From NCBI GenBank assembly GCA_026874595.1, contig CM049307.1:27316362-27380361 (forward strand): 64,000 bases of DNA, read 5' to 3'. The position numbers and the translations under genes were made by a program. This document shows, piece after piece, positions 1-35,433 of this stretch. A model generated the notes under the pieces. The model was not told where the DNA came from. It searched no databases and was given only the letters and a program-made list of their open reading frames with translations. This DNA comes from Sipunculus nudus. Lineage: Eukaryota > Annelida > Sipuncula > Golfingiida > Sipunculidae. Position 1 is the first letter of the stretch. The number at the start of each line of letters is the position of its first letter.

Positions 1-505
1 AGATCTGGATCAAACTATTTTCCATATCTCGTCTATATACTAAAAATACGGGAAACTTAATATAATATTACAAAAACGATAATAATGATAATAAAACCAA
101 TATAACGAATACGCTCTTGGAGAAAAAACTCATTGAAATCTTTCATATCCCTTTCAGGATGATTTGGTTATCTGCTGTCAGAACTGATAATTCATTCACC
201 CGTACACGGGCCTCAACATCACCGGTGAGTCACGCCGCATGAACAACCGCATTAACCGGCCGTGCACTGTAGATCTAATCATAAAAGACTCGAGAGTCTA
301 CCAAATGTACACTCAGGCGACACCACACTCTAGTGTATATATGTATAGGTTCCGTACCTGTGCATAGGTCTTGCATGAGTACACGTGTCCCCACAGACTC
401 GTGCGGGCTCACTGGGACAAAAGCCAACGCTCTCCTGATCGTCCCTCGTCGGCTTCATTGGTGTAACGGAAAATGTGCTTTTTCGTTGTTTTAATTGCCT
501 CCTCC

Positions 506-550
<45 letters not shown>

Positions 551-2887
551 CTCTCTCTCTCTCTGTGATTACGGATATATATATAGTTTAAATTATTTTA
601 TTAATAGTGTTTTAAAAAATTTTAAAAACTTTTGCAGAGTTTGTAAAGATTTAAACAAGACTAATTTATATATATTGTGAAGAATACAAGCACGCGTTAA
701 TTATCATCTTTCTGTTTTCTAGGCCATTCTAGGAGCCTTATTCCTGTCCCTTTACCTGAACATGTCTTTTACATATAACTTCCTTTTTATCCCTTAAACT
801 TAATAAACAACAAGGAAATAATTCTCCCTTTAAGCTAAAGAAAAGTTCACTGGTATTGAAAGAAAATATAATTCCTGATTGTCACATTCTTTTCATATAT
901 ACTTTTGTAGGATATGAACGGTTAGTAAATGATAAATACTCTTTCATTAAATGTTATGCAAGTGTATTAGACAAAGTATACAGTAACCATGAAGGGCTTG
1001 ACATGAAAAAAAAAAAACATAACTGGGTACTTCATCCAATATCGTTCTTTTACCTGTCATTTTTATATATGATCTATGTGAAAATTATGAGAACAAAATA
1101 TTATTATCATTAATGTAAGAAAATAAGATATGGATAAAATCTCCGCCTTTTTCAACATTTTTTTTTTATTTATTAATTTTTTATACTGACTACGGGTTTC
1201 AACATGCCATTTTTTTACGACTGAAATATTCCGCGTGGTATGTCTTAATGAAAGAATCATTGAAAACATTACGGGGGTGAATACACTCTGCAAATCATTT
1301 CCGTTTCCGCCACTGAAGTCGGGCAGACCACGCGCCAGATATCGGAACAACAGGACGTGCTGGAATTGAACACCTGAAATTTCATTTTGGTATGCTATTT
1401 GCAAAAATAAACCCGCTGGTGAAATCGTATAGATATACACTATCGTTAGTGTGGTAGATGGAACTGAAAACCTCGTGACCATTCACGATTGTCACGGATT
1501 GAGTTTGTTGGCATGTCCACGTTGTGTAAGAGCTCAGTTGACAAGCTTCACGAAATCAGTGAATGCCCCCGGTCTGCAGCAGAAGGGTGACGCTTGGCAT
1601 GCGCTGTTTCCCGGTTCAGGCAGTTAGCTGGGCCTCAGATCAGAATAAAATCTTTAGTCGAATGTTTTAATGAATGGGTTGAATTTCAGTGGCGGATCCA
1701 GGATTTTGGAAAGGGGAGAGACCAACCAAGGAAGAAAACCTTAAAAAAAAGGTCATCTGGACCAGAAAAGAGGTCAAGGTTGCAAATTTTGGTTTGAAAC
1801 CCTCAAAAAAGGTGTTAGGTTAAAAATAGGGATCCCCTCTGGATCCAACATTGAATTTAAACACCAAGGGCAAGGCTTCCAAGCATTCCAATTTCCATGA
1901 CCATGGTTAATAATATTAATATTTAACTTTATCTTGAAAAGGAATTCCATTTGTAATAGGTTTTGTGTAATTGTCATTTCAGTTGCCATCTATAGTACAG
2001 ATGGCAATTAAAATGACAATAACACAAGCCAAGTATGAATCTATAGTCTATACTTGAATAGAAAACCAGGTATATTCCTTGTATTGGAAAATTTCATCAT
2101 TTTCATGAAGATGCCTTAAACATTTAACTACTTGCTTTTTGCCTTAACTTTACCCCATAACACATTTTCATCCATGAGAAAGCTGCAGTTATGGGATTCT
2201 GCCCAAGCTAAAGTATGGGCATTAAAAAGCCATTAGTTACTGGAACCGTAGGCAACAAAAGTAAAAGTTATGCTACAGCCAACTTTTCTAGTTACTAAAA
2301 ATAACTTATCTTTGATAAAAGTTTTGCTGATTTGTTGGTTATACTCATTTGAAGAATATGAAGTTGTCTTGTATGATAATGAAGACCAACATTTTTTGCT
2401 TTGCAAAGAGTAGTTTTGAACATCAGTTGGACTTTTGTCCAAAAAAAAATTTTGCCTTTTTCTAAGTTCCTGGTCAAATAAATGTTTGTGGACTTGGTTG
2501 TCAGGGTTAATGTTTGACCCTGCTGGTGACCAGGTTTGATCCTGGCTTGGCCATGACTGGGTTTTCCCAGGCCGATGTTATTCACCAGTTTCCTCCTGAG
2601 TCCACCTCTGCACACACCAGGCGCCATTACTGAAGCCATTGAGAGTGCCAAGAATTGGCTACAGCTACTTGTACAATCCATGTTAGAGTAAATGTAAGGA
2701 TATATGTAGAATTACAGAACTGTCATAATTTATTAAAGCAAGGGTGTCCTTATTGTACAAAATGTAAACTGAAAATGTAGATAACCATACAATACACGGC
2801 TCAGTGCTGGAATATATTTCCAGGCCAATGAACCAGTGTAGACCCCAGCCATATGATAGTTAGAATTCCATTGAGGATAGGACAGAG
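1..2887. other. No gene recognised; upstream flank of the snoRNA host gene
   Basis: No convincing coding exon is visible; open frames here are short and AT-driven. The 5' exon or exons of the snoRNA host gene should lie in this stretch, because the first snoRNA at 2888 must sit in an intron, but I could not find a clear exon with a good splice donor. Near 1688 there is a motif (GGCGGATCCAGGATTTT) that resembles ends of animal DNA transposons; no partner end was found nearby. Confidence 0.5.
507..564. repeat. (CT)n microsatellite
   Basis: Run of CT dinucleotides with a single G interruption near 548. A short open frame through it encodes only a Leu-Ser repeat and is not a gene. Confidence 0.95.
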
Positions 2888-2976
2888 CCAGCTTTGGGTG
2901 ATGATTCAAGGTATGGTTTCGCTTTTTATGCTGAAACTTTGTGATGTAACTATCCTTGGCTGTCTGACAAAGCTGG
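2888..2976 (+). ncRNA. Box C/D snoRNA, predicted 28S Cm3848-type guide, copy 1
   Basis: Seen: C box GTGATGA at 2898-2904, D' box CTGA at 2931-2934, a C'-like GTGATGT at 2941-2947 and D box CTGA at 2964-2967. The ends form a terminal stem (CCAGCTTTG with CAAAGCTGG). The ten bases before the D box, CCTTGGCTGT, are complementary to ACAGCCAAGG of eukaryotic 28S rRNA (rRNA recalled from memory). The fifth base upstream of the D box pairs with the C equivalent to human 28S C3848, a known 2'-O-methylated site. A second stretch, TGGTTTCGCT, pairs with the adjoining 28S bases AGCGAAACCA. It lies several bases away from the D' box, so it is probably an auxiliary pairing and not a second guide. A diverged paralogue lies at 3343-3429. 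The RNA would be released from an intron of the host transcript. Confidence 0.85.
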
Positions 2977-3051
2977 TAATGTCAGATCATTCCTCCCCTG
3001 ACAGTGATTTGCATCAGAACATGTATTTATGGTGTTTTATGTGTATTTCAG

Positions 3052-3163
3052 AGGTTGGTTCATGTGCCGTGATGGAGGGATGGGGTCCAAGGATGAGACG
3101 CATCAAGCTTATTGGGATTACAACGCCTGCAGGGCAGATTGGGCAAACTGCTAGAACTATCAG
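3052..3163 (+). ncRNA. Host-gene exon
   Basis: Acceptor TTTCAG ends at 3051 and donor GTAACT begins at 3164. It sits between the two Cm3848-type snoRNAs. The exon is open in one frame from an ATG at 3072, and this frame stays open into the next exons. Confidence 0.6.
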
Positions 3164-3342
3164 GTAACTTCATTAGGCAAAACGTAGCATTCACAATGAA
3201 ACATTGCAGGCAAAATCTTTGCGTAATATTAATGGATAATTTTTGGTGTTTCAAGAAAATGCTTTCAAGAAACTTCTCCTTTGGTTTGTGCTATTTTTTA
3301 TTGCTCATGTGATTGAAGGATTATATGCAGAGGAAGGAGTGA

Positions 3343-3429
3343 AGTGCTTTGGTGATGATTCAAGGAATGGTTTCGCAACTTTTGCTGAATTTTCATGTTG
3401 TTATCATCCTTGGCTGTCTGAAAAGCTTT
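3343..3429 (+). ncRNA. Box C/D snoRNA, predicted 28S Cm3848-type guide, copy 2
   Basis: Paralogue of the RNA at 2888-2976. C box GTGATGA is at 3352-3358, D' CTGA at 3385-3388 and D CTGA at 3418-3421, with terminal stem GCTTT (3346-3350) against AAAGC (3422-3426). Both rRNA-matching blocks are kept: the D guide ending CCTTGGCTGT and the auxiliary TGGTTTCGC. The D'-C' spacer and the outer stem have diverged, so selection appears to have held just the pairing blocks and boxes. It lies in the intron after the 3052-3163 exon. Confidence 0.85.
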
Positions 3430-3609
3430 TAATTTCAAGATTATATTATTTGGTTACGCAGTTTTAGGTTTAAATTGATGTTATGAAAAATGTTTGTGAG
3501 GAGAGCAGTGCCACTTCAGAGGACTGACATTGCTGGAAGATTTGAATGGTAAAGAGCCACATAATTAATCAACTTAACCATTCTATTCTTTTTGTTTCTG
3601 TTATTCCAG

Positions 3610-3704
3610 ACCTGCTGCCAGGCCATATGTGACAGCCTTGGTCATTCCAGTTGAGCAGGATTACAGGTGCAGATGGACTTGATCTGCAGCAGAGATTCAT
3701 AGAG
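3610..3704 (+). ncRNA. Host-gene exon
   Basis: Acceptor ATTCCAG ends at 3609 and donor GAG/GTGAGG begins at 3705. An alternative weaker donor, CAG/GTGCAG, follows 3666; using it would keep a small reading frame open into the next exon. The SNORD27-like RNA starts about 50 bases downstream. Confidence 0.55.
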
Positions 3705-3756
3705 GTGAGGCTGCCTGGAGGGTTTCTTCAAATGATTTGTGAAGTGACATATCAGG

Positions 3757-3829
3757 GCAGTTCAGTGATGATAAAAATAGACAAGCATATATCTGAAATA
3801 ACTGTGGATACCAGGAGCCTGAGAACTGC
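3757..3829 (+). ncRNA. SNORD27-like box C/D snoRNA, copy a
   Basis: Terminal stem GCAGTTC (3757-3763) pairs with GAACTGC (3823-3829). C box GTGATGA is at 3765-3771, D' CTGA at 3793-3796 and D CTGA at 3819-3822. The block before D', AGACAAGCATAT, is complementary to the 5' end of 18S rRNA (ATATGCTTGTCT). Its register to the D' box is the same as in vertebrate SNORD27, so the fifth base pairs with the nucleotide equivalent to human 18S A27, predicting 2'-O-methylation there. The D-box guide differs between the three copies in this locus and is probably idle. It lies about 50 bases after the preceding exon. Confidence 0.9.
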
Positions 3830-4696
3830 TGAATATGTTTTGTATTCCTGTAAGAGGTTTTGCCTGTACATTGTGATTATGCTTTTGTTATAGACCCTTT
3901 GCACTGACCTCACAGCATCCCAGGCAACAGCCTCACTGAGCCATGCTGGAGGATAAACACAGCTGGAGTGCAGGCTGTCGCTGGCCAGTACCCCAGCCTG
4001 GGCTATCTAGATATCAGTCAAATGGATACTACCAGTAGATCGTTAAGTTAAACAGAGAGCCCAAAAGGAAGATCTATATATGTTACTGACAGGATCTCCT
4101 TCAAATCATGACATTTGCAAGTGTGAACGAAAAATGGATTCTATGTAAAATTATTAAACCCCATATTATTGTAGTCAGATCAACTGGTCGGTTCCAGTTG
4201 ATCATGACATGTTCAGTAATGTAACACATATACATTACGCTGACAATCAAGATGCCTTTATCTTACATCAAATCCATATTTTGAAGTTGCCAGCGAGTCT
4301 TTAGATAGTCACTTGCTTGAGATACAGCTCAGCAGTAATGGAAGTCTTAGATGTTTAACAGAACTGAAACTTAGAAGTACAACGGAGTATGGGCCGGTAA
4401 AATCAGTATGACTGAGAATATGGATCTCTCCAGTCTCAGAAAATCAGACTGTTGTCTATCTATAAAAGGTGGTGTGGAAAATTTTATTTATCTTATTCTC
4501 AATGCAGGTGTATGGGTTAGAGATGTTCTTAAAATGAAGATAACATTTGTGTTGTTTAGATCAAAAGAAAAAGGATGCCAGTCTGATGTTAAAATATAAA
4601 AAAGTCTCTTGCATGCATGATAAAGTTATCACAAGAAAAATATAAGCTTTGATCTTAATTGGATTTTAACATTCAATAAAACTGATAAAATATTGA

Positions 4697-4698
<2 letters not shown>

Positions 4699-4751
<53 letters not shown>

Positions 4752-4752
4752 C
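4699..4752. repeat. (AT)n microsatellite
   Basis: Alternating AT run with one GT interruption, inside the TIR element. Confidence 0.9.
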
Positions 4753-4881
4753 ATTTTACTTACAAGCTTTCTTATTTACTAGTATTAAATGAAAATTTGT
4801 ACATAATTTCATGTACGAGGCCTTGTAAGTTGCTGGCACTTGAGCTGTCCATCCATGTAGAGCTAAATACATAATGTACTT

Positions 4882-4889
<8 letters not shown>

Positions 4890-4970
<81 letters not shown>
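4890..4970. repeat. (AT)n microsatellite
   Basis: Long alternating AT run with a short AAAT interruption. It produces an artefactual Tyr-Ile frame on the minus strand. Confidence 0.95.
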
Positions 4971-5748
4971 ACATATATGTATGTTTACACATATTAACAA
5001 ATATCAAGTCCATTGAATCATTTAACTGGAATGTTTCATGTCTAAATATATGTATGAAGAAGGAACACATATCAGAATAAACCATGGTAAATATGGTATT
5101 TGATAATTATATATCACTAAATATTCCTCCACTACTCAAGTACATATGTCCATATTTGGGAAAACAAATAGTGAAGTCCAGTGAAGGTTAGAAAAATAAC
5201 ATAACATCTTTCATCACAAAATAGGAATAGACAAGGATTTAGAGTTTAATCCAGATGTGCAGTTTTAGGGGGATGGGTTTGATGGGGACTGTCTTGGCCA
5301 GTCACCAGCCCACGGGTTCCTGCTGGTCCTTTGCTATGTTCACCAGTTTAAAATTTCTTATCCCTAATTCCACAGTTAATTACAGCATTAAAAGTTTACA
5401 ATACTGCAAACATAAGTAACGTATATGCTAGTTTGGAGAACACAGCATGCAGTGTCAAGTAGACCTGCTGGGCCATGTGGAGGTCAGCTGGGAAGCATAG
5501 CGTGTACTCCAGTATGGATGCTGGGCTGGCTGGCCAGCCTGTGTGACGTCACATGCAAAGGGTCTATACAGGTCTATCTCCCAAACTTTTTGACAGTTAA
5601 CTAGTGTTAATGTAAACTTTATGTATATACATTTCCCAACATGTGAGACATGATATGGTAAATTGTTTCAGAAGTATTTGAGCATTCTGAGCATCTAAGC
5701 TTATGTAATAGTTGATATCCTGTTGATAAATGTTTTTAATGTTTACAG

Positions 5749-5797
5749 GGAATATTGTGACATTTTTTGGTGGCAACGAAGAATCATTAGCACAAAG
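5749..5797 (+). ncRNA. Host-gene exon
   Basis: Acceptor GTTTACAG ends at 5748 and donor AAG/GTGAGT begins at 5798. The second SNORD27-like RNA begins 76 bases after the donor, repeating the exon-to-snoRNA spacing seen for copy a. Confidence 0.65.
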
Positions 5798-5873
5798 GTG
5801 AGTGGGCTACATAGGCATTTAATTTCACTCTTGAAAGGTATACTATCTGTCCATTTGTTAACCAGTGTTGGCA

Positions 5874-5945
5874 GCAGTTCAGTGATGATAAACTTGACAA
5901 GCATATATCTGAAATAAATGTTGACATCAGGACCCTGAGAACTCT
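5874..5945 (+). ncRNA. SNORD27-like box C/D snoRNA, copy b
   Basis: C box GTGATGA is at 5882-5888, D' CTGA at 5909-5912 and D CTGA at 5935-5938. The terminal stem AGTTC/GAACT directly flanks the boxes. The D' guide GACAAGCATAT is identical to copy a over the 18S-matching part. The D-side guide and outer stem have drifted. Confidence 0.88.
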
Positions 5946-6261
5946 ACAACACTGTGCCCTTTTTGTCTTGTTTTAAAATCGGTTAATTGCTTAGGATCAT
6001 AATGCATGTGCAAAGTAAAAGTATTCAGTCAACAACTAGCAGGTCTGTCATATATGGTGAATCAATTACACTTCAACTATTTAAATATCATTGAGTTGAT
6101 AGTGGTTAGTTGTAATTTACCTAGTAATTAGTATATATATCTGCAGTGAGTGTCAGTTGGTTACTGCTTTGCATTCCAGATTTGAAAGTATACAATATCC
6201 TTGTTTGTAATGTTTTGATCTCAACCAGAATTTGTAAAGGAAGTGTATCATATGATTTCAG

Positions 6262-6325
6262 GTGCCATCGGTGGATGAGTAATTGCCTCAAGTTTGGTTC
6301 CAGGTTGACTTACTAAACTGACCGG
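6262..6325 (+). ncRNA. Host-gene exon
   Basis: Acceptor GATTTCAG ends at 6261 and donor CGG/GTAAGC begins at 6326. It contains in-frame stops. The following intron is expanded to about 3.9 kb by two mobile elements. Confidence 0.55.
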
Positions 6326-6430
6326 GTAAGCAGGTTTTATATCTCAACTCTATCTTGGTAATATACATTCTCTCATGTTCATCACCTGACTAGGTTTTTA
6401 ACCTTGAATTAATTAAACCATGTTTTTTTT

Positions 6431-7951
6431 ATGCCCCCGCCACAAAGTGGCCGGGGCATATAGTTTTACCCATGTCCGTCCTTCCGTCATTCCAAAATCT
6501 AACAGTTGTACGGACTTTTTTTCGCAATGCCTGCAGATATTGGCCTGATTTTTGGTGTGTGGACAGATATAGACCTGTTACAGATCGAGTTCGCGTTTCG
6601 TCCCGGTTGACCTACTTTTGACCGTTTTACGGCTCCTAAACATAGAAATTTTCATGAAAAATAGAAATATTCATGACAGATACACATGTACGGACTTTTT
6701 TTCGCAATGCCTGCAGATATTGGCCTGATTTTTGGTGTGTGGGCAGATATAGAGCAGTTACAGATCAAGTTCACGTTTCGTCCCGGTTGACCTACTTTTG
6801 ACCGTTTTACGGCTCCTAAACTTAGAAAATTTCATAAAAATAGAAATATTCATGACAGATACACATGTACAGACTTTTTTTCGCAATGCCTGCAGATATT
6901 GGCCTAATTTTTGGTGTGTGGGCAGATATAGACCAGTTACAGATCGAGTTCGCATTTCGTCCCGGTTGACCTACTTTTGACCGTTTTACGGCTCCTAAAC
7001 ATAGAAATTTTCATGAAAAATAGAAATATTCATGACAGATACACATGTACAGACTTTTTTTCGCAATGCCTGCAGATATTGGCCTGATTTTTGGTGTGTA
7101 GGCAGATATTGACCAGTTACAGATGGAGTTTGCATTTCGTCCCGGTTGACCTACTTTTGACTGTTTTACGGCTCCTGAACATAGAAAATTTCATGTAAAA
7201 TATATATTTTCATGACAAATACACTTGTACAGACTTTTCTTCACAATACCTGCAGATATTGGCCTGATTTTTGGTGTGTGGGCAGATAATGACCAGTTAC
7301 AGATCAAGTTCATGTTTTGTCCCAGTTGACCTATTTTTGACCGTTTGACGGTGCTCTAACATAGAAAATTTCATAAAAAGGTGCACATGTATGGACTTTT
7401 TTTCGCAGTGCCTGCAGATACGGGCCTGATTTTTGGTGTGTAGGCAGATGATAACCAGTTACAGATCGAGTTCTTGTTTTGTCTCAGTTGACCTACTTTT
7501 GACCATTTGACTGCTCATGAACATAGAAAGTTTCATGAAAAATATAAATTTTCATAACAAATGCATATGTACTGACTTTTTTTCCTCAATGCCTGCAGAT
7601 ACCACCCTGATTTTTTTTGTGTGGGCAGATAATGACAGTTACAGATCGAGTTTGCGTTTCATCCCGGTTTACCTACTTATGATTGTTTTACGGCTCCTAA
7701 ACATAGAAAATTTCATGAAAGACAGAAATTTTTATGGAAAATGCACATGTATGGATTTTTTTTCACAATGCCTGCATATACTGGCATGATTTTTGGTGTG
7801 TTGCTTGATAATGACCCGTTACAGATCAAGTTCGCATTTTGCCCTTGTTAACCTACTTTTGACCATACGACACCTCCTGAACTTAAAAAATTTTACAAAT
7901 GTTTCTAATTTGCCCAAGGCGGGGGCATTTGTGTCGTTCCGACACATCTAG
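6431..7951 (+). mobile_element. Family A Helitron-like element, copy A1, with 180-bp tandem core
   Basis: It starts with a stem-loop (ATGCCCC...GGGGCAT, 6431-6459) and continues with a GTCC/TTCC-rich stretch. It then holds about eight tandem units of 180 bp, most containing a CTGCAGATATTGGCCTGA-type core. It ends with GGCGGGGGCAT, a second stem-loop (GTGTCG/CGACAC) and CTAG before T. The 3' stem-loop plus CTAG-T end is typical of Helitrons; the inverted start/end motif and tandem core recall the bivalve pearl/HINE elements (inference). No protein is encoded. It lies in a host-gene intron. Confidence 0.75.
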
Positions 7952-8095
7952 TTTTAATTTATAATTAAAGAGAATTTATCAGGATCCAAAGAAAAAGAAG
8001 TCTTGACCTCCTCCACTGTTCTTTATTTTCATAAATAATGTTTTGACTTTGAATATGTTCTGTTCTAAAAATATACGAAAAACTAGACATCAGAT

Positions 8096-8168
8096 GCAGT
8101 TCTGTGATGATCACATTTGACAAGCATATATCTGAAACAAACTGTGGATATCTGTATCTGAGAACTGC
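8096..8168 (+). ncRNA. SNORD27-like box C/D snoRNA, copy c
   Basis: Terminal stem GCAGTTC (8096-8102) pairs with GAACTGC (8162-8168). C box GTGATGA is at 8104-8110, D' CTGA at 8132-8135 and D CTGA at 8158-8161. The 18S-complementary block GACAAGCATAT before D' is unchanged from copies a and b. A mobile element now separates it from the upstream exon, but its boxes and stem are intact. Confidence 0.88.
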
Positions 8169-8899
8169 TGGTTATAATATTTTGTAATAAGAAAACTTCA
8201 CAAGATCAACATTTATAGCATCAAAAAAAATGTTTAAAAAAGTGGCAAAGCTTTCTCTTGAAATCATGTGCATAGTTCCCAGCCTTAAAATTTTGAATTT
8301 TTAGCTCTGCTGACAAAGTCATTTTAGCTATGGCAATCACTCTTTGTCCATTATAAGAGTGTGTATGGGTTAACAGGGCACAAATTGTAACTGCCAGACC
8401 TAGAATCTTCTAGCTTGACATCCAGGGCGGTTTATGAATATGAAAAATCTTGTAAACCTGAAATTCGGTCTGTTTCCCATAATCTCCGAGTTGTGGGGCT
8501 CAGAAGTACATACACCCCCTAGAATAAATAAAAATTTGATACAAAATCTTCAGTATTTGAACAACTAATGCATTGATCACCATGATTCTTTGCATGCATA
8601 TTCATGGAGCGTTTCATCAGTTCCTGCAGACTGATAATGACACCTGGAATTTTTACGCATTTTATTCTATTATTGAGAACACTGGGTCTGTTAACAAGGC
8701 ACAAATTGTACCTGCAAAGGTTGGAATCATAAACCTCTTATATTCTGAGAGTTCCCCTAAAGTTCTCCTCAGAAACCTGAAATTAGGTCACTGTGCCTTA
8801 TATTCTCTGAAATTTCGAGGCGTGTTTGAGCACCCCAGAAATAATTCAAAATACACACCAATTTCCAGATTCCTCAGGAATGGCTTGATGGCTTCTTAT
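8169..8899. other. Intronic sequence, no feature recognised
   Basis: Inside the host-gene intron. Two related segments (about 8385-8480 and 8695-8790), each with a CAAATTGTA and a CTGAAATT motif, suggest a decayed tandem duplication. No snoRNA boxes or exons were found. Confidence 0.5.
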
Positions 8900-9878
8900 T
8901 ATACCCTTGCAACGAAGGGATATAGTAAGGCCTCAGTTTGTGCGTCCCTCTGTCCATCCTGAAATGGTTTTTAAATTTATTTAAAAATTTAAATGATTTA
9001 GAGCCAAACTGTTTAATCGAAACCTTTCATCTTCCACATATGGCTCACCCACCATAAGATGAAGAACACTATTGTTTTTGAGGTCACAGGGTCTAAGGTC
9101 ATGGCCACTGGATCCACCTCTTGAAAAAGCTTGTGGACCCATTATAAGCCAAACCGTTTGACTTAAACCTTTCATCTTGCAAATATGGCTCCCCTAACAT
9201 GGATGAAGAAACCTGTCAACCCAATTTTGGCCTAACCATTAGACCAACACCTTTCATCTTGCACATATGGCCCATCCACCTATGCATGAAGATCCCTATC
9301 AATTTTGAGATCACGGTCAAACGTCACATCCACAGCACCCACTTCTTGAAAAAGCTTATGGCCCCATTATAAGCCAAACCGTTTGACTTAAACCTTTCAT
9401 CTTGCAAATGTGGCTCTCCTATCTATGGATGAAGAACCCTGTCAACCCAATTTTGGCCTAACCATTAGACCAACACCTTTCATCTTGCACATATGGCCCA
9501 ACCACCTATGCATGAAGATCCCTGTCAATTTTGAGATCACGGTCAAACGTCACAGCCACAGCACCTACTTCTTGAAAAAGCTATGGCCCCATTATAAGCC
9601 AAACCGTTTGACTTAAACCTTTCATCTTGCAAATGTGGCTCTCCTACCCATGGATGAAGAACCCTATCGACCCAATTTTGGCCTAACCGTTAGACAAACA
9701 CCTGTCAGTGTCATCTTGCTCATGGCTCCACACCCATGGATGTTGCACCCTATTTAGTTTCAAGTCACAGGAGCATAGGTCAAGGCCAGAGAGCTGCCCT
9801 CCTCATTTTCACACTGTGTAATACACCCATTCTAATTCTGGCCCATGCGATGGGATGCTCCACTTTGCATTGCCCTTG
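8900..9878 (+). mobile_element. Family E Helitron-like element with about 230-bp tandem units
   Basis: The 5' stem-loop is ATACCCTT/AAGGGAT (8901-8921). The core holds repeated units sharing CATTATAAGCCAAACCGTTT and TTTCATCTTGCAAATATGGC. The 3' part has the stem CCCAT/ATGGG and ends CCCTTG before TT. No coding capacity. The architecture matches families A-D. Confidence 0.65.
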
Positions 9879-10186
9879 TTAAATTTAGTGTGCCTATGGG
9901 TTTTGATGAACTTAAGCTAATATGCATGAATGATGATACCACCTACATTATCTTAATTAGTTGCAAGAACATATTGTCAGCATCTCAGTCGGCTGAGTTT
10001 CATAACCTATGGGTCACTTGGTGTAATAATGCCAGATCATGGTTCATAATGGTAGCTATCCAAATGCCCTCTGGAATATGATGATAAAATAAAATACCAT
10101 ATATGTGTTGAATTTTTATCCTGAGATCTTTTTTCGTTTTGAGCATATTTCTCGTATAAACAGCTTGTGACTTATTTTTTTTCCAG
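9879..10186. other. Intronic sequence before the exon at 10187
   Basis: No confident feature. A weak box C/D-like arrangement at about 9929-10004 (TGATGA, CTGA and a 5-bp stem) has no recognisable rRNA guide and was not called. Confidence 0.4.
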
Positions 10187-10259
10187 AACTGCTTCCAGGG
10201 TGCCCCAAAATACCACACCATCAACAATGATGCCAGAAAACTACCAGGGAAGTCTAAAG
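10187..10259 (+). ncRNA. Host-gene exon
   Basis: Pyrimidine-rich acceptor ending CCAG at 10186; donor AAAG/GTATGT begins at 10260. The H/ACA RNA lies in the intron that follows. Confidence 0.6.
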
Positions 10260-10549
10260 GTATGTTTTTTCAAGACACTTAATGCTAACAACCTATTTTA
10301 GAGTAAGATCTAAATTGTGATGCTTCAGAATTTAGCTGATATTTATGTAATATTTTGGATGGTAGCACAGAAGTTAAAAATGTACAAACAGATAAAGTGA
10401 GCTTACCATGTTTAAAGGAGGATTTAATATTAGAAGGAAAAAAATCCTGTGTCAGGAAAACTCAAAAACTTATAACTGATATTGAGGTTTGCAGAATCTG
10501 TGACAGATGCATCCTGTGTACAGTTAAACTCATGTGAAGGCTGCAAGAA

Positions 10550-10687
10550 ATAAGGCACCATGTCTTCACTTTACCATGCCACTTCACAGTAGTGGTCATG
10601 GGGTGATTTTTGGTGACAGAACAAGGTGTTATTTTCACTGCCTTTGTGGAGTTGTCTTCACATGGGTATAAGCAATAACAAACATAT
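10550..10687 (+). ncRNA. H/ACA box snoRNA candidate
   Basis: Seen: a 5' hairpin with lower stem CACCA (10556-10560)/TGGTG (10611-10615), an internal loop, and an upper stem CCATGCCACT/AGTGGTCATGG. A hinge AGAACA at 10618-10623 fits the H box ANANNA. The 3' hairpin has lower stem GTTATT (10628-10633)/AATAAC (10674-10679) and upper stem TGTGGAG/CTTCACA. ACA at 10682-10684 is three bases from the inferred 3' end. This is the full hairpin-hinge-hairpin-tail layout with two pseudouridylation pockets. I could not assign the target uridines. It sits about 120 bases upstream of the next exon's acceptor. Confidence 0.7.
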
Positions 10688-10805
10688 CACTGAAAAGGAG
10701 CTATCAACCAAACTTAAGCTGTCAATTTGGTTTGCATTATTACCATTATAAACTTCTTACTGCCAGCATAATAATTATTTTTTCTTCATGATCTTATTTT
10801 TATAG

Positions 10806-10888
10806 GGTCAGGCTGCATACACAGTATGTGAAGGCTTCCACACCAAGAAAAACATGAAAGTGAACACAAAAGAACATCACCAACCAAG
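10806..10888 (+). ncRNA. Host-gene exon, founder of a duplicated exon family
   Basis: Acceptor TTTATAG ends at 10805; donor AAG/GTCATT begins at 10889. The exon and about 70 bases of upstream intron are copied at 11488-11648, and the exon's 3' half again at 11774-11818. Confidence 0.6.
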
Positions 10889-11340
10889 GTCATTGTCTTT
10901 CTTCACAGTTAAGTTCAGTATTATAATAACACTAGTGAGTGTGCTTAACGCTAAGCTCCCAAATGTAACAAGATTAAAGATACATAAAGAGTGCGAAATG
11001 ACTGCATGGGACTCAAAAGGAGTATTGCCAGATATTTTGTCCCTCACGTAAGGAGGGAGGACTACTAAAATTAAATGGTCAACATCCATCTCTCTTTCCT
11101 TGTTCTTTTACAACATATCTCTTAAGACCCTTGCTGCTTTCTTCACCAAATTTTGCAGACTTGGCACATGACTGACGTGATTATAGCCTGCAGTGTTGAA
11201 AAATTTCCCAAAAGGGTCATGGTCACTTATCAGTGATGCCACACTTTTTTTCGTGAAATATATGGCTATGGCTGTGGACTAGTTGTACGTCTGAGCTCTT
11301 GTTTTCTCACTTGTGTGGTCATACATTTTTGACCTAAGTA

Positions 11341-11416
11341 TGTGCAATGATTGAAAGTTGTCTTCCAATTGCTGCTTGCGGTACATGAGGAAAACTTGAT
11401 CCACCGACTGAGCACT
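11341..11416 (+). ncRNA. Box C/D snoRNA, predicted 5.8S Um14 guide, copy 1
   Basis: D box CTGA is at 11408-11411 with closing stem GTGC (11342-11345)/GCAC (11412-11415). A C-box-like ATGATTG (11347-11353, not full consensus) follows the 5' stem, and a C'-like ATGAGGA lies further in. The guide TGATCCACCG (11397-11406) is complementary to CGGTGGATCA of 5.8S rRNA. The fifth base before the D box pairs with 5.8S U14, a methylated residue whose human guide I recall as SNORD71. The imperfect C box lowers confidence that this copy is active. Confidence 0.75.
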
Positions 11417-11571
11417 GCTGTAGTATGTGAATATTAAAATCTGGCTTATGTCTTCCACATTACCACCCATAAATGTTGGGTTTTCATTATTGCCATCATA
11501 AACTTCTTACTACCAGCATAATAATCACAAGTCCAAAGTGCAAGTATTTTTTAATGATTCTATTTGTGTAG

Positions 11572-11648
11572 GGCCTGACTGGATATATATGAAGATTTCA
11601 CAACCAGGATAACATAAAAGTGAACCCAAAAGATCACCACATGCCAAG
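11572..11648 (+). ncRNA. Host-gene exon, second copy of the 10806 exon
   Basis: Acceptor TTGTGTAG ends at 11571; donor AAG/GTAAGT begins at 11649. It matches the 10806-10888 exon over most of its length but with stops, and shares the upstream intron block containing AAACTTCTTACT. Confidence 0.6.
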
Positions 11649-11773
11649 GTAAGTATGTTTCATCAAATAGTAAGCTAATGTCGTGGGCCCGGCCCGCCGG
11701 TTTTACTCGGCAGATCAGGACATTCTGCTGCCATAACCATGTACTATTAATCTATGTTATTTCGGTTTGTCAG

Positions 11774-11818
11774 GATGGCCTAATAAAGGTTAACCCAAAG
11801 GAAATATTATTTCCTAAG
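11774..11818 (+). ncRNA. Host-gene exon, partial third copy
   Basis: Acceptor TTTGTCAG ends at 11773; donor AAG/GTATAT begins at 11819. Its middle (AAAGGTTAACCCAAAGGAAA) aligns with the 3' half of the two upstream exons. The intron before it is only 125 bases and holds no snoRNA. Confidence 0.45.
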
Positions 11819-12351
11819 GTATATTGGTATTTTAGGGGATGAATTATAGAATGCTGGGCTTAAATACCTATTATTAAAGTTGGGAATTATTTAATTGCTC
11901 TCACATACATGCCCACATATATACTGGTGTTCGCACAATAATAAAAAAGTCCAAAGTAAGTTTGAATATTGTTAGAAAAACTATATACCCATTCTCCTAA
12001 AAGGAGGATCCAGCAAATGGCTGGAACATGCTTATTCATATTTACATTTAATGTTATCCAGGTTACCAATAGTTACAGGGGCACTAAAATACTCTAAATA
12101 AATAACAGTCAGCTGACTAATGGATAATTAAAACCTGTTTGTAATGAATTTACTAGCCCACTAATCAATCAGTTTTCTTCTGAGTACAACTATGCACATA
12201 TATAGCAGTGTACAGTGACACAACAGTAATAAAGTATTCATTTTTATGTGCACTACCAACATGGCTATTTAGTCTGATATCCCATCAGTATCTCAATTCC
12301 AATATATAATATTAATAGTCAACAGCTTATACTTTTAGGGCTAGTTCCCCG

Positions 12352-12655
12352 ACCCACACCTTGTAGCACAACTTTCCTGGCCACAGGTGGCACAACTACT
12401 TTACTGGCCACAACAACCTTTCTGGTCACAGGTGGCACAACTACTTTACTGGCCACAATTACTTTTCTGGTCACAGGTGGCATGACTGGTGGCACAACTA
12501 CTTTACTGGCCACAATAACTTTCCAGGTCACAGGCTGTGGCTCACTTCGGGGCACAACCTGGGTCACAGGCTGTGGCACAACCTTCCGGGTCACAGGCTG
12601 TGGCCCAACTTCTTGGGTCACAGGCTGTGGCCCGACTCCCTTGGTCACAGTGGCC
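12352..12655. repeat. Minisatellite rich in GTCACAGG units
   Basis: Repeated blocks such as GGTCACAGGTGGCACAACTA and GGTCACAGGCTGTGGC, in two interleaved unit types. On the minus strand the array is open and would read as a Pro/Val-Val-Thr repeat. With no gene context I treat this as a consequence of the repeat. Confidence 0.8.
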
Positions 12656-13003
12656 ATATCTAGGATATTAATTTGATTTTTGTAATATGCAAACTACACT
12701 AGTTAAATGACCAAAGCCCTTTCAGAATATCTATTCCCATTCATTTAATGCCAGAATAGTCTGGCTCAGGGGGTTTCACCTGAGTGGTTTACGTCAGGAG
12801 CTGACCAAAGTCCTTTGCGCTGGGTGTCGCGGCTGTCGCCTCCTTTATAGGGTCAGGCCTGTGGCCAAAACTGGCCACATACCACGTGATCCTGTGGCCA
12901 AAAAAGAGGTCGCGTACTGCAGTGATTGAAACTTGAAGAAAGCTATATATTTTACTATTAACTAGTGATAGCCTGTTATAAATAAGTATTTACTATTATA
13001 ATT

Positions 13004-14466
13004 GTATCCGCCAAAACGAAGTTTTGCGGATACTATGTTTTTGACCGGGTTCCGCCGCCGCCGCGTTCGTTTCCGGAGAACTCCTCTGAGACTACTGGAC
13101 AGATTTTTCCGAAACTTACACAAATTATCGGGTCACATGTGAACTGGTGCCTTACCAAGTGACCTTGACCTCTGACCTTTTGTCTCTGCCCAGCGTCCGT
13201 TTGTGCGTCTGTTTACACACATAAACCCATATATCTCGGGAACCGTTTGACCGATCCGGAAAATTTTTTTACACAAATGTAGCCCTGGGATAGCTTTATA
13301 ACATACACAACAAAAGGTGGCGCCACCTGCAACCATGTTTGCACAGTGTCCATCTGTTCATCTGCCTGGGGTTAAAATCACTCATATCTCTGCAGTGGTT
13401 TGACTAATTCACCTAAAATTTGGCATGCATATACATCCTAGATAGCTTTCTCAATTTTATGACAGGTGGCGCCACCTACATTCACGTTAACGCTCAACAC
13501 ATAAACCCATATATCTCGGGAACCGTTTGACCGATCCGGAAAAAAATTTTACACAAATGTAGCCCTGGGATAGCTTTATAACATACACAACAAAAGGTGG
13601 CGCCACCTGCAACCATGTTTGCACGGTGTCCATTTGTTCATCTGCCTGGGGTTAAAATCACTCATATCTCTGCAGTGGTTTGACTAATTCACCTAAAAAT
13701 CGGCATGCATATACATCCTAGATAGCTTTCCTGATTTTATGACAGGTGGCGCCACCTACATTCACGTTAACGCACCACACATAAACCCATATATCTCGGG
13801 AACTGTTTGACCGATCCGGAAAAAAATTTTACACAAATGTAGCCCTGGGATAGCTTTATAACATACACAACAAAAGATGGCGCCACCTGCAACCATGTTT
13901 GCACAGTGTCCATTTGTTCATCTGCCTGGGGTTAAAATCACTCATATCTCTGCAATGGTTTGACTAATTCACCTAAAATTCTGCATGCGTATACATCCTA
14001 GATAGCTTCCTTGATTTTATGACAGGTGGCGCCACCTACATTCATGTTAACGCTGCAGACATCAGAGCTCATATCTCGGGAACCGTTTGACCGATCCGGA
14101 AAAAAATTTTACACAAATGTAGCCCTGGGATAGCTTTATAACATACACAACAAAAGGTGGCGCCACCTGCAACCATGTTTGCACAGCGTCCATCTGTTTG
14201 TCTGCTGTGGGATAAAATCACTCATATCTCTGCAGTGGTTTGACTTTTCCACTTGAAATTTTGCATGTGTATATATCTTGGATAGTTTCTCGTTCAAATA
14301 ACAGGTGGCGCCACCTACAATCATGTTTATGTGGCAGAGATCCAATACTAATATTTTACATATGTAACTCTATATCCCCTTGCCACTCAATCCATGCCTC
14401 ACTTCACCCGTCCTTCTCTGATTTTGGCGGATACACGTAGTCGCTTGTCGACTACCCGTATTCTAG
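13004..14466 (+). mobile_element. Family B Helitron-like element with 280-bp tandem core
   Basis: The 5' stem-loop is GTATCCGC...GCGGATAC (13004-13033). About four tandem units of exactly 280 bp follow (ATAAACCCATATATCTCGGG at 13221, 13501 and 13781, and the equivalent near 14061). Each unit carries the palindrome AGGTGGCGCCACCT. The 3' end has TTTTGGCGGATAC, a stem-loop GTAGTCG/CGACTAC, seven bases, then CTAG before TT. The stem-loop plus CTAG-T end is the classic Helitron 3' terminus. Non-coding. It lies in the large intron between 11818 and 15533. Confidence 0.78.
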
Positions 14467-15354
14467 TTAAGAAATGTGACAACATTTAATAATCAGTCGG
14501 GCCTTACTGAAGTTCAAATACCCTGCCCTGCACCCTGCGGTCAACAGCCAATCACAGAACACATGGGCAAGCCCGTATCACTACGCCGCAAATAGTTCGT
14601 AAATGTTGTCAAACAAACGCCCGTCAGCTGATCTTGCAACATGGTTTTCCCAGGGATTAAACGGCTATTTATTGTGCATGACACATATCATATTACCAAA
14701 AGAAATAATCTACGAGGTCTATTTAATGCCTGATCGTTAAGGTAAGACCAAAAGAACAATGTTTTCCCTTGTTATTAAACTGAATCCCTCAATATCGCTC
14801 GAGCCATGGAAAAACCATGTGCTTACATGAATTAATGCCGCCGATCCACACATTCCTATGTTATACTAGTCGGACATGGTTAAATAATGATAATGCAATA
14901 GTTTATTACACTTTAGAATAATAATGATTATGTTTAGGATCCCTAATGATCACAATCATGAATGTTAAAACACGTACAAATTACCGTAAAAAGACGACAA
15001 TGCCAATGCTGTCAGTGACAGTTCTTTAACATTCGCCGTCACTGTCACTGTAAACATGTACTTGTTATTAACTGTGTTATCAATACCATTAGTGATGACA
15101 CGATTATCAATAGCTGTACCAATAAAGCAGCAAAAATGCTCGGATTAACACATATACTGTAACTAGTTACAGTTATACCAACGAACACTCTAAATATTAT
15201 ATTATTTATTATGTTAACACTAGGAACGGTTTTCAAAAACTGTGACACTAATAATAATTAAGTCCACTATTATGTCATGAACTTGTGTGACTTTAAAAAA
15301 GTATGGCCTGAAACGTTTTTTGCAATTATATGATCATAAATTCTTGACCCGTTT
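14467..15354. other. Intronic sequence, no feature recognised
   Basis: AT-rich sequence up to the second 5.8S-guide snoRNA. No exon or structured RNA was found. Confidence 0.5.
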
Positions 15355-15433
15355 ATGTGCAATGATGGAAAAGTTGTCTTCCAAGTGCTGCTTGCAGTAC
15401 ATGAGGAAAACCTGATCCACCGACTGAGTACAG
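15355..15433 (+). ncRNA. Box C/D snoRNA, predicted 5.8S Um14 guide, copy 2
   Basis: Closing stem TGTGC (15356-15360) pairs with GTACA (15428-15432). C box is ATGATGG at 15362-15368 (one base off consensus), the C'-like motif is ATGAGGA, and D CTGA is at 15424-15427. Guide TGATCCACCG (15413-15422) is identical to copy 1 and complementary to 5.8S CGGTGGATCA with U14 at the methylation position. The closing stem has changed between copies while pairing was kept, which argues for function. It sits 100 bases upstream of the 15533 exon. Confidence 0.8.
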
Positions 15434-15532
15434 CTGACCGTTGTAGTATGTGATTACTTCAATCTTGCTTTTATCTTCCACATTACTCCCCATGCTACCA
15501 TCCAGTAAATGTTGCTTTCTATTCAATTTCAG

Positions 15533-15591
15533 GATGAAGATGAGCCAGCCTGATGCAGAAATGTCTTGTTTTCGATGGCAAGAATTGAAAG
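15533..15591 (+). ncRNA. Host-gene exon a
   Basis: Acceptor CAATTTCAG ends at 15532; donor AAAG/GTAAAT begins at 15592. It begins GATGAAG, as does exon a' at 16307, showing that the snoRNA-exon-snoRNA block was duplicated. Confidence 0.6.
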
Positions 15592-15922
15592 GTAAATCAA
15601 ATTGAATATGCTTTTGTTATTCATACAGGAAATTTTAACCATACATTGACACTGTATAAAAGTATCCTAAAGTATTCTACTGTCTGTTAGCCATTCTGTA
15701 GGTTGCACAGGTCCCAGAAAGTTAGCCGTCATTATTTAATTTATATTGCCCACATTTTAATTGTACATGAGAAACATTCTTAAGTAACCCTAACTTGACC
15801 CTCATTCTCAGTGGATGAGAAAATTATTATGAATGACTTGTAATCAATGAATAATTAAAAGATCTACAAAGCTTTTGCAACAGTTGACTGAGACTTATAG
15901 AACATAATAGAGAAGAACCAGA

Positions 15923-16087
15923 TTTTGCGGTGTTATGATGACTCAGGCTAGAGTTTCAGACAGCCCTCTGTCCATGGCTACCAGGCCCACTTGGGTTGCT
16001 TCTGGTGATGTGGGCAGAGGTAAGGCATCCACTCGGAGCAGCCATGACCTCGCTGTATGCGGCAGAATACCCTGACTGAACACAAAA
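15923..16087 (+). ncRNA. Long orphan box C/D RNA, copy 1
   Basis: C box is ATGATGA at 15935-15941; two adjacent D boxes, CTGACTGA, lie at 16072-16079. Flanks can close a stem (TTTTG..GTGT with ACAC.AAAA). Inside is a short hairpin GACAG/CTGTC with loop CCCT. At about 165 nt it is far longer than the 70-90 nt guide RNAs around it. I could not match its D-box guide to any rRNA stretch I remember. It is nearly the same as copy 2 at 16656-16816 over the whole length, while the surrounding intron has diverged. It may correspond to a long, processing-type snoRNA (vertebrate UHG carries the long U22), but no sequence match could be made. Confidence 0.6.
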
Positions 16088-16144
16088 CTTTCAGATTTTG
16101 TAGTATATTTGCTCTGTAATTTCCAGGAGGAAAGATTACTTAGG

Positions 16145-16226
16145 TTTTGCAATAATCAGCCATTCTTCAACTTTTCAGCTCCTCCTTGCAGTACTGGAGG
16201 AAAACATGATCCACCAAATGAGCAGT
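16145..16226 (+). pseudogene. Decayed third copy of the 5.8S Um14 guide snoRNA
   Basis: It aligns with the RNAs at 11341 and 15355. The guide TGATCCACC is kept at 16207-16215, but the D box is ATGA instead of CTGA (16218-16221) and the C-box position reads ATAATCA. It lies just upstream of exon a', as copy 2 lies upstream of exon a. Probably a dead duplicate. Confidence 0.55.
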
Positions 16227-16306
16227 TGTTGCAGGCCCGAAATTCAACCTAACACTCTACCATATTACCAAACAAGCTTCCATCGTTGCTCTCTATTGTA
16301 CTTCAG

Positions 16307-16348
16307 GATGAAGCCAGCCAGCCTGATGAAGAAGGTTAAGATGCAAAG
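16307..16348 (+). ncRNA. Host-gene exon a' (duplicate of exon a)
   Basis: Acceptor TACTTCAG ends at 16306; donor AAAG/GTAAGT begins at 16349. It shares GATGAAG and GCCAGCCTGATG with exon a. Confidence 0.6.
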
Positions 16349-16655
16349 GTAAGTGAGCATTTTTGATATCCACACATGAAATAGTAACCATTTAATCACT
16401 TTGCCTGAAGCCATCCTGCTTGTAAGCCATTTTGTAAAATACTGTCTTTGGTTACACGTCTTAGACATTCGAGGATATTAATTGATATTGCCCACATTTT
16501 AATTGCACAAGAGAAATGTATTTAACTTGTGTAAACTGCACTTGAGCCTCATTCTCTGTGAATGTGAAAATTTATGAGAATGACTTATAATTTATGAATA
16601 ATTAAAATATCTACAAAGCTTTTAAAATAATTGAACTGAAGAGAAGTAGCAGATT

Positions 16656-16816
16656 TTGTGGTGTGATGATGACTCAGGCTAGAGTTTCAGACAGCCCTCT
16701 GTCCACATGGACCAGGCCTACTCGGGCTGCTTCTGGTGTTGTGGGCAGAGGTGAGGCCTCCACTCGGAGCGGCCTTGACCTCGCTGTATGCGGCAGAATA
16801 CCCTGACTGAACACTG
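16656..16816 (+). ncRNA. Long orphan box C/D RNA, copy 2
   Basis: C box ATGATGA is at 16666-16672 (overlapping GTGATGA); D boxes CTGACTGA are at 16803-16810. GTGT and ACAC can close the ends. It has the same GACAG/CTGTC hairpin as copy 1, plus a larger hairpin with AGGCCT arms and CTGC/GCAG. The D-guide region GCGGCAGAATACC is identical in both copies. The exon acceptor at 16918 follows about 100 bases on. Confidence 0.6.
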
Positions 16817-16918
16817 GCAAACCCTTCAGATTTTCTACATCTGCCAAGTCGGTTAACATACACCAAACAATTGAACCTTCAATACCTTATTTTGTCGAAT
16901 TTTGTCTGTATTTTCCAG

Positions 16919-17178
16919 GAAGAAAGGTTGCTTAGCCTCAACAATAATCTACCATTCTTTCATTACAGGGACAGCCCACTAACTTTGCATCTTATAAACC
17001 AGTGGTTCCGTAAGTTCAATCTAAGGACTTCTAAACCCTGGTGCTGCAGTGAAAGACTGCTCATTTGGAAAAGGTCTAGATCACTGGCCATAATGGACCT
17101 GAAATGGATTGAGTGAAATAAAGTGTTTATGGAAAATGTGACCAATGGTATAGAATAAATATTTTGAAATAAGTGGTC
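16919..17178 (+). ncRNA. Host-gene terminal exon
   Basis: Acceptor TTTTCCAG ends at 16918. A second possible acceptor, CATTACAG, ends at 16970. The exon reaches AATAAA at 17117 and 17154 with GT-rich sequence after about 17172, so polyadenylation near 17175-17180 is likely. Its first bases (GAAGAAAGGTTGCTTAG) are a copy of the block at 16127, the equivalent position in the first duplicate. Confidence 0.6.
17117..17159 (+). promoter_or_regulatory. Two polyadenylation signals of the host gene
   Basis: AATAAA at 17117-17122 and again at 17154-17159, followed by a GT-rich stretch at about 17174-17186. Confidence 0.6.
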
Positions 17179-32612: not shown

Positions 32613-34159
32613 CTAGAATCGCGGTGGCAATTTTCTCTTTTTAGAAAGTCGCTGACTGGCAGTATCAGGACTGCGTTCTCGCTTCTGGCACGTAGGCTGA
32701 CTAGTAGTGTCTAACTCAGGGTGGTCGGGATAGGAGTAACTAATTGTGGAGACCTGGTTGCCGTGGTGATCTTCCTCATCACTAGTATCATCATAACCAG
32801 AACTGGCATCGTAATGGTCTGAGCTGGAATTATCGTATTCTGAAATATTATCTGGAGAAGCAGGGCTAAAGGTGCCTTCGTGACCTTCCCCTACTCTCTC
32901 TAGGGTCTCTGCTATATGCCTCCCAGGACGAACCCAAACAATGGACCCAGGCTCTACCTGACCAGGAGAGGACCTTAACAAATTCCTGTCTCTGTGAGTA
33001 TTACAATGATTTGTACTCCGGTCTGTGGACAAGGCAGGTTCTGCACAATTTGCACGATCATTTTCTGTTTCAGATTCAGTCAGTGGATCAGTGTAGCCTG
33101 TCTGATGATTAACTGAGTCTGTTCTGTCTGGGTTTGGAGCCACTGGTGCTAAAATAACAGCGTATGTAAGGTTAGAGTCAGAGGAGTGTGTACGACGACC
33201 ATCACGCACAGATGAAGCACTATCAGCTCCATCAACATATCCGCTGTGTGGATAAGGATCTGGGGACACAGGGCTGTTGGCGAAGTCTCCATCTGACAAC
33301 ACAGAACAGCGCTCATGATTGTCATTGTAACTGCTACTGAAACTCATGTTAAATAAATAATCACCATCCCGTCCTGGGTCATCACTGCCATGACCTGGTG
33401 CACTGACCTCTGACCTCACATCTTCAGCATCATCAGCTGGATCTTCCTCTTGAAAATCAATGGTCCCTACCACTTCCTGTGTGTCGCCATCAGAAAACAC
33501 ACTGGCTTCATTTGTACTGTCCTGGTTATCATTATTTTCATTGTCTGCGTCATTTTCAGAATAATACCCATACTGCTCAGAGTATACGGAATCAGACTCA
33601 GAATCCTGTGGCTGATGGTGGTCTGACTGATGGTCACTGTAAGATTCCTGATCATTTGTGGGTATAAAATCAGCAGCAGGATCGTTATCACTGTTTACCT
33701 CCGCTACAGATGATGTAGCCTCTTCATCATCCTCATCATCTAGAAGAATCGTACTTTCATCATAATCATGTTCTTGCACACCCCCTGTGGTTGTCACCTG
33801 GTCTTCACTGCCTGAATGCTGGCCCCTGTAACTCGCTGACGGGGGCTCATAATCATAATCCTCGGAATCAGAATGTTCATCCAGTCCCTGGTCTGGAGAA
33901 GCTAGTGGAGCACCCAGGAAGTCTGTCCCTACACCAGGGCTGTTGTAGCCTCCTTCAGTGTAGCTGTCTGAATCCTCAGTTCCACTGAATGTGTCACTCA
34001 AGTCTGGATTCTCCTGACCAGCCTGTATCCAGGGGGCAGCACGGTGTTCAGCTTCTGACAGTTTCTCTCGTTCCTCTTTCAGCTGATTTTCTAAGTTTGC
34101 TTTGATTCCATCCAACTCTTCAAGTCTTTTTCTCAAGCCACTTAGTGCCTGGTGTTGTT
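32613..34159 (-). CDS. RING gene, coding exon 2 (coiled coil and acidic tail)
   Basis: The acceptor AG ends at 34160. The first two bases AA complete the Glu170 codon, giving an uninterrupted coiled coil across the junction. The stop TAG is at 32615-32613. An ATG-initiated frame runs upstream through the intron to 34256, but splicing is the better reading. Confidence 0.9.
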
Positions 34160-35427: not shown

Positions 35428-35433
35428 GTCACT

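Follow-up and report, generated by a model that had tools for sequence, protein, structure and literature searches.

Does the forward (+) strand near the start of a 64,000-nucleotide window of the Sipunculus nudus genome (contig CM049307.1, positions 27,316,362 to 27,380,361, numbered here from the first base of the window) carry a host gene for small nucleolar RNAs (snoRNAs), and if so, of which kind and with which guides? Judged from its sequence, the + strand between 2.9 and 17.2 kb very probably constitutes a UHG/SNHG-type host gene, noncoding in its exons and carrying snoRNAs in its introns. Eleven snoRNA elements of five families were recognized, all on the + strand and all within 10 predicted introns that lie between predicted acceptors and donors. 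This is a known kind of gene with its own mix of guides, and hosts of this type have already been described from vertebrates and flies.

Eleven snoRNA elements within predicted introns

By sequence, nine elements are intact (two SNORD53/92-like RNAs, three SNORD27-like RNAs, one H/ACA RNA, X2, Y1, and Y2), one is doubtful (X1), and one is decayed (X3); X denotes the family of the 5.8S-U14 guide and Y that of a long SNORD52-type RNA. Nine of the 10 predicted introns hold one element, and the tenth holds one intact and one decayed element. An initial annotation had described snoRNA-bearing introns between short exons, and this observation was confirmed, with all 11 elements falling inside 2,888-17,178 on the + strand. 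Its count of eight intact snoRNAs was superseded, while its single decayed copy stands, and its claim of at least five guide families agrees with the five supported by sequence. The guide that it matched to SNORD27 was found by Rfam in three copies, though below the cutoff, with a D' guide to 18S-A27. Also borne out were the polyadenylated last exon, since the poly(A) signals fit the proposed exon, and the stop-ridden nature of the exons.

The enrichment of box C/D elements was assessed with a strict scan (RTGATG[AGT] and CTGA boxes, 55-180 nucleotides [nt], terminal stem of at least 5 bp). Seven matches were obtained on the + strand of 1-17,200, all among the elements described here, and none on the minus strand of that region; the 110.8 kb of strand outside + 1-17,200 gave six, located on both strands of 17.2-64 kb. 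Over 200 dinucleotide shuffles of the 17.2 kb, the mean was 0.36 strict matches and the maximum was 3. The C/D candidates are unlikely to be products of chance. Not captured by the strict scan were Y1, with a stem of 4 bp; X1, whose C box reads TGATTG; X3, which has lost its boxes; and the H/ACA RNA. Both SNORD53/92-like copies exceeded the gathering cutoff of RF00325, the only two of the 11 elements to exceed a cutoff, and Rfam searches over 17.2-64 kb returned nothing at an expect value (E) of 1 or less. Near-matches to SNORD121A, ceN28, SNORD14, snoZ266, SNORD75 (minus strand), Spy490483c, and several microRNA (miRNA) families were below cutoffs and were rejected; they overlap better explanations or were taken as chance.

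Each of the 10 predicted acceptors has the AG, with 9-15 pyrimidines among the 18 preceding bases. Eight donors matching 8-9 of the 9 consensus positions occur on the + strand of 2,888-17,178 and none on the minus strand, and six of these eight end predicted exons. When the 10 exons were joined, each frame contained 11-21 stops, and the longest stretch from a methionine was 72 amino acids (aa), whichever exon 2 was used. The joined exons share no continuous reading frame, which argues for a noncoding host whose exons, as in UHG/SNHG genes, lack a conserved open reading frame (ORF). CpG-rich DNA lies upstream, at 1-500 (observed/expected [o/e] CpG of 1.16) and 1001-1500.

In the proposed mode of expression, RNA polymerase II would make a long precursor, and splicing at the observed sites would join short exons that have no common reading frame. 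Each excised intron would then be trimmed to its snoRNA, as the layout of elements per intron suggests. The C/D RNAs would guide 2'-O-methylation of 18S-A27, 28S-C3848, 28S-U3904, and 5.8S-U14, for which duplexes were computed, and the H/ACA RNA would guide a pseudouridine.

Table 1. Predicted features of the snoRNA locus (window coordinates)
Feature	Position	Strand	Evidence
SNORD53/92-like C/D snoRNA copy 1, guide to 28S C3848	2893..2971	+	Rfam RF00325, 57.1 bits (gathering 46)
SNORD53/92-like C/D snoRNA copy 2, same guide	3347..3425	+	Rfam RF00325, 53.6 bits (gathering 46)
SNORD27-like copy 1, D' guide to 18S A27	3760..3826	+	RF00086, 40.6 bits (gathering 52), E 3.6e-4; 12 bp on L003 18S
SNORD27-like copy 2	5877..5942	+	RF00086, 43.1 bits (gathering 52), E 9.1e-5; 11 bp
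SNORD27-like copy 3	8099..8165	+	RF00086, 39.1 bits (gathering 52), E 8.7e-4; 11 bp
H/ACA snoRNA, two hairpins, H box AGAACA 10618-10623, ACA 10682-10684 (or 10678-10680)	10556..10687	+	Fold and boxes
X1, 5.8S-U14 guide copy, damaged C box (TGATTG instead of TGATGR)	11344..11416	+	89% identical to X2; same 10-bp guide
X2, intact C/D snoRNA, D guide TGATCCACCG to 5.8S U14	15360..15432	+	Strict C/D scan; 10 bp without G-U to L002 5.8S
X3, decayed X copy, C and D boxes lost, guide core remains	16160..16226	+	9 bp to L002 5.8S left
Y1, long C/D snoRNA, SNORD52-type D' guide to 28S U3904, internal 56-nt hairpin	15928..16083	+	
Y2, second Y copy	16659..16814	+	91% identical to Y1; strict C/D scan
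Weak first-exon candidate, start 150 guessed by eye, could equally lie elsewhere	150..224	+	Donor 8/9 at 224
Predicted exon	3052..3163	+	Acceptor AG, donor 8/9
Predicted exon, alternative donor at 3666	3610..3704	+	Acceptor 15/18 pyrimidines; donors picked by eye
Predicted exon	5749..5797	+	Donor 9/9
Predicted exon	6262..6325	+	Acceptor AG with only 9/18 pyrimidines; donor CGG|GTAAGC, under 8/9
Predicted exon	10187..10259	+	Donor 8/9; acceptor 14/18 pyrimidines
Predicted exon, weak donor (GTCATT)	10806..10888	+	Acceptor AG; 59/83 alignment columns identical to next exon
Predicted exon	11572..11648	+	Donor 9/9
Predicted exon	15533..15591	+	Donor 8/9; acceptor 14/18 pyrimidines
Predicted exon, copy of 15533..15591	16307..16348	+	Donor 9/9; 34/42 aligned positions identical, 17 gap columns
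Predicted last exon, poly(A) signals 17117 and 17154, 3' end approximate	16969..17175	+	

Guides and their predicted target sites

Guides were tried at 26 positions (18 at CTGA and 8 at degenerate boxes) with a crude routine first, and selected ones were rescored. The target ribosomal RNAs (rRNAs) came from contaminant contigs: 18S of L003, which we took by eye to be yeast, partial 18S/28S of L004, and 5.8S of L001, L002, L003, and L004, located by Rfam in L001, L002, and L004 and by pattern in L003. For the 3' part of 28S, human letters were used rather than the species' own rRNA. Three rRNA patterns sought in viral_contigs gave no match. Complementarity alone is modest evidence here because 2-7 of 300 random 22-mers from the region equaled the accepted guides in this respect. 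That each guide lands on a listed modification site is a stronger point, with a rough estimate of about 3 in 10,000 per guide (7/300 x 106 sites over ~7,200 nt). The four sites, 18S-27, 28S-3848, 28S-3904 (old numbering), and 5.8S-14, are all among the 106 human sites of PMC5597630, and the guides given for them in that source are SNORD27, SNORD53 and 53_92, SNORD71, and SNORD52.

The D guide of the SNORD53-like copies pairs over 11 nt, including one G-U, and its D+5 position is the C of ACAGC (28S-C3848, on the human 28S letters). The D' guides of the SNORD27-like copies pair over 11-12 bp, with D'+5 at the A of CATATGC (18S-A27). Identity between copies was 78% for SNORD53 and 82-88% for SNORD27, versus 43-45% for shuffled letters (30 shuffles per pair), whereas their flanks (120 bases before and 80 after) were 40-48% identical versus 41-47% in shuffles. 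Since the flanks are near the shuffle level, conservation of these copies starts and stops with the snoRNA.

The two families that the initial annotation had left unnamed can now be named by the sites to which they are predicted to pair: X by 5.8S-U14 and Y by 28S-U3904. The guide shared by X1 and X2 forms 10 bp with no G-U, and D+5 is the U of CGGUGGAUCA in the 5.8S of L002. Counted from the start that Rfam gives for that 5.8S, this U is base 13, and by comparison with the human 5.8S sequence it is presumably U14 in human numbering. Rfam holds a SNORD71 model, and no match of X to it was listed up to an E of 5; the likeness of X to SNORD71 (HBII-239) consists of the guide to the 5.8S-U14 site only, with no detected sequence likeness. 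Human 5.8S-U14 is listed under SNORD71 in Table 1 of PMC5597630, and a Drosophila 5.8S primer given in PMC13228274 contains the same ten letters, CGGUGGAUCA. Among the copies, X2 and X3 are 64% identical versus 41% in shuffles, with flanks at chance in that alignment, and the function of X1 is doubtful. The D' guide of X2 has a 15-nt match to the yeast-like 18S whose score (29.5) is higher than those of the accepted guides; it was taken as chance, as random 22-mers reach 33.5, and the matched stretch is one we take to be an 18S variable region. At 10806-11416, the exon with the poor donor (GTCATT) directly precedes the damaged X1, and both may be losing function together.

The H/ACA RNA has a hairpin-H box-hairpin-ACA layout across 10556..10687, with boxes found by eye and their letters checked. 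Its hairpins gave z scores of -3.87 and -3.95, and none of 200 shuffles was as stable for either. Rfam gave no match to this RNA at its cutoffs.

Y is an unusual, long SNORD52-type RNA and, together with the 5.8S-U14 guide, makes up the less ordinary part of the locus. Its guide forms a 13-nt duplex, including three G-U pairs, with D'+5 at the U of GACUCUAG (GACU); this U lies 56 nt after C3848 and, by that distance on the human 28S letters, is presumably U3904. As in SNORD52 (RF00276), the C box is followed by a D' guide to 28S-U3904. Y differs from SNORD52 in its length (~156 nt versus a 67-position model), its 56-nt internal hairpin, its D' box CAGA, and its 3' half, which has no known target. 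The likeness is confined to near the 5' end, and the scores of 23.2 and 17.6 do not reach the SNORD52 gathering cutoff of 45: the model matched Y2 under the cutoff, with an E of 0.041 in a 1.6-kb search and 0.52 in 20 kb, and matched Y1 weakly (E of 1.4 in a 1.6-kb search). The internal hairpin is more stable than all 200 shuffles in each copy (z of -3.82 for Y1 and -4.03 for Y2), and the last 39 bases of the two copies are identical. In a joint fold with 50 predicted pairs, four one-sided changes keep pairing, none is two-sided, and no pair is broken; this is weak evidence because only two close copies are compared.

The kind of host gene and its alternatives

Intronic SNORD27 in a host without a protein product is also the arrangement of SNHG1/UHG, which contains eight snoRNAs, SNORD22 and SNORD25 to -31 (PMC7154078). 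The present locus differs in having SNORD53/92-like, 52-site, 71-site, and H/ACA RNAs instead, several of them in repeated copies. The SNORD27-like guides in a noncoding host could suggest an ortholog of SNHG1, which we consider unlikely: Rfam scans of the locus found no other SNHG1 guide, and other guides of the present locus belong to other vertebrate hosts according to PMC2653536. Because only SNORD27 is common to both, the gene is of the UHG/SNHG type but is not shown to be SNHG1. The noncoding UHG-type host of the initial annotation is therefore retained, without its special kinship to UHG/SNHG1. The human host of SNORD52 is C6orf48/SNHG32. In chicken, WDR43 and NOL5A house U53, and AP1G1 houses HBII-239, the guide for 5.8S-U14 (PMC2653536); these hosts differ from that of SNORD27, so these guides do not accompany SNORD27 there. 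The chicken gas5-like noncoding host resembles the present locus in the tandem duplication of snoRNA units (PMC2653536). Drosophila Uhg is described as having no recognizable ORF and a single snoRNA per intron, save two introns without any (PMC4430873). The present locus shares the absence of an ORF and the single-snoRNA introns but differs in that its introns are long and repeat laden. The fly 5.8S modifications named in PMC13228274 are Gm74 and Um66, not Um14. A literature search for mollusc snoRNA host genes found none among the matches listed, as judged by titles and the beginnings of abstracts.

Many snoRNA hosts encode proteins (PMC13228274), and the first exons of this gene were not found, so that only noncoding or misread exons of a protein-coding host, such as WDR43 or the ribosomal-protein hosts, might have been seen. 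However, stops crowd each of the three frames when the exons are joined, with either exon 2, and such a host is distinctly unlikely. A reading of the snoRNAs as dispersed copies, retroposed or decayed, with no working host gene is very unlikely. X3 is decayed, X1 is damaged, and the introns are crowded with repeats, as scattered copies would predict, but the SNORD53 and SNORD27 copies have kept their boxes, guides, and stems between flanks that are close to chance level, and the 11 elements share a single strand and lie between predicted splice sites.

Several observations weigh against a noncoding host gene with these guides. The first exon and promoter of the gene, and an exon before the first snoRNA, were not located in the window sequence. 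The exons were initially picked by eye with the donors in view, and one of them (10806..10888) has the weak donor GTCATT. Donors at 7/9 or better are commoner on the minus strand (40) than on the + strand (27) of 2,888-17,178, and the rest of the window (46.8 kb) has 16 (+) and 9 (-) donors at 8/9 or better; the donor excess by itself is small, given the minus-strand lead at 7/9 or better and the 16 on + elsewhere. For six of the 11 elements, namely the X and Y copies and the H/ACA RNA, no Rfam hit reaches a cutoff, and the SNORD27-like scores, 39.1-43.1, are all under the RF00086 gathering cutoff of 52. Over the 26 positions tried, chance alone would be expected to yield roughly half a match of the 2% level. 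The 28S targets, C3848 and U3904, depend on the human letters rather than on the species' own 28S, and the 5.8S match of the X guide is present in one of the four 5.8S sequences compared (L002, not the other three). No convincing target in the rRNA tried was found for the D guide of any of the three SNORD27 copies or for that of Y, and the pocket search with the H/ACA RNA gave only weak rRNA matches that differed between rRNAs, with no convincing target U.

With the noncoding UHG/SNHG-type host as the preferred reading, the locus provides a host gene from a lineage other than vertebrates and flies, with C/D guides that can be assigned to individual sites. It also suggests that modified sites are kept even as the content of host genes is reshuffled. 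Tentatively, an invertebrate lineage may have built its own UHG-type host from guides that are split among vertebrate hosts. These would include a 5.8S-Um14 guide in which no resemblance to SNORD71 was detected and an elongated RNA of the SNORD52 type, in which the hairpin and the 3' half would have an additional role, either in pre-rRNA processing or on another target.

Probable duplication, intronic repeats, and neighboring genes

X2 and X3, Y1 and Y2, and the repeats between them are spaced 731-794 bases apart, a spacing that points to a probable tandem duplication of a unit consisting of X, an exon, and Y. Duplication of this ~740-bp unit would have brought Y1 and X3 together in a single intron, after which X3 would have decayed; Y1 remains intact. 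The flanks of X1-X2 (89% identical) and Y1-Y2 (91%) are 50-63% identical versus 43-49% in shuffles, above chance and below the snoRNAs themselves, as expected of younger duplications. Exons were copied as well, in the pairs 10806-10888/11572-11648 and 15533-15591/16307-16348. The locus offers a testable case of snoRNA birth and decay via intron-exon duplication, and the apparent loss of X3 once it shared an intron with Y1 would be a natural experiment on the rule of one snoRNA per intron. The repeat in introns 9 and 10 (15779-15887 and 16526-16634) was folded as a candidate for a further snoRNA; no C/D layout was seen, and it was taken as duplicated intron.

Other repeats occupy the introns. 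Inverted terminal repeats (TATAGACCCTTTGCA and its complement) surround a 1.7-kb insert at 3889-5568, within the intron that holds SNORD27 copy 1. The insert contains AT microsatellites and looks like a DNA transposon from its sequence. An element at 6432-7930 has complementary ends (ATGCCCCCGCC and GGCGGGGGCAT, by eye) and six overlapping repeat matches inside, spaced 179-342 bases. Tandem repeats of ~225 bases lie at 9003-9707. The long intron of X2 has four tandem 280-base copies at 13216-14355, 74-96% identical to the first, with a CpG o/e of 0.7-0.95. A GGTCACAGG-type minisatellite at 12350-12660 is open on both strands for ~124-132 aa, and its + reading had no Pfam match. Upstream of the locus, an inverted repeat found by eye at 1959-2034, with sub-threshold matches to miRNA families, is likely a small hairpin element.

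Two other genes were noted elsewhere in the window. At 32613-35466 on the minus strand, an exon of a RING-finger gene (PF13639) adjoins a 554-aa acidic open frame, and a protein search with this exon found two relatives at 53-54% identity. An exon of a mitochondrial carrier gene (PF00153, E of 1.9e-15) lies at 59114-59386 on the + strand.

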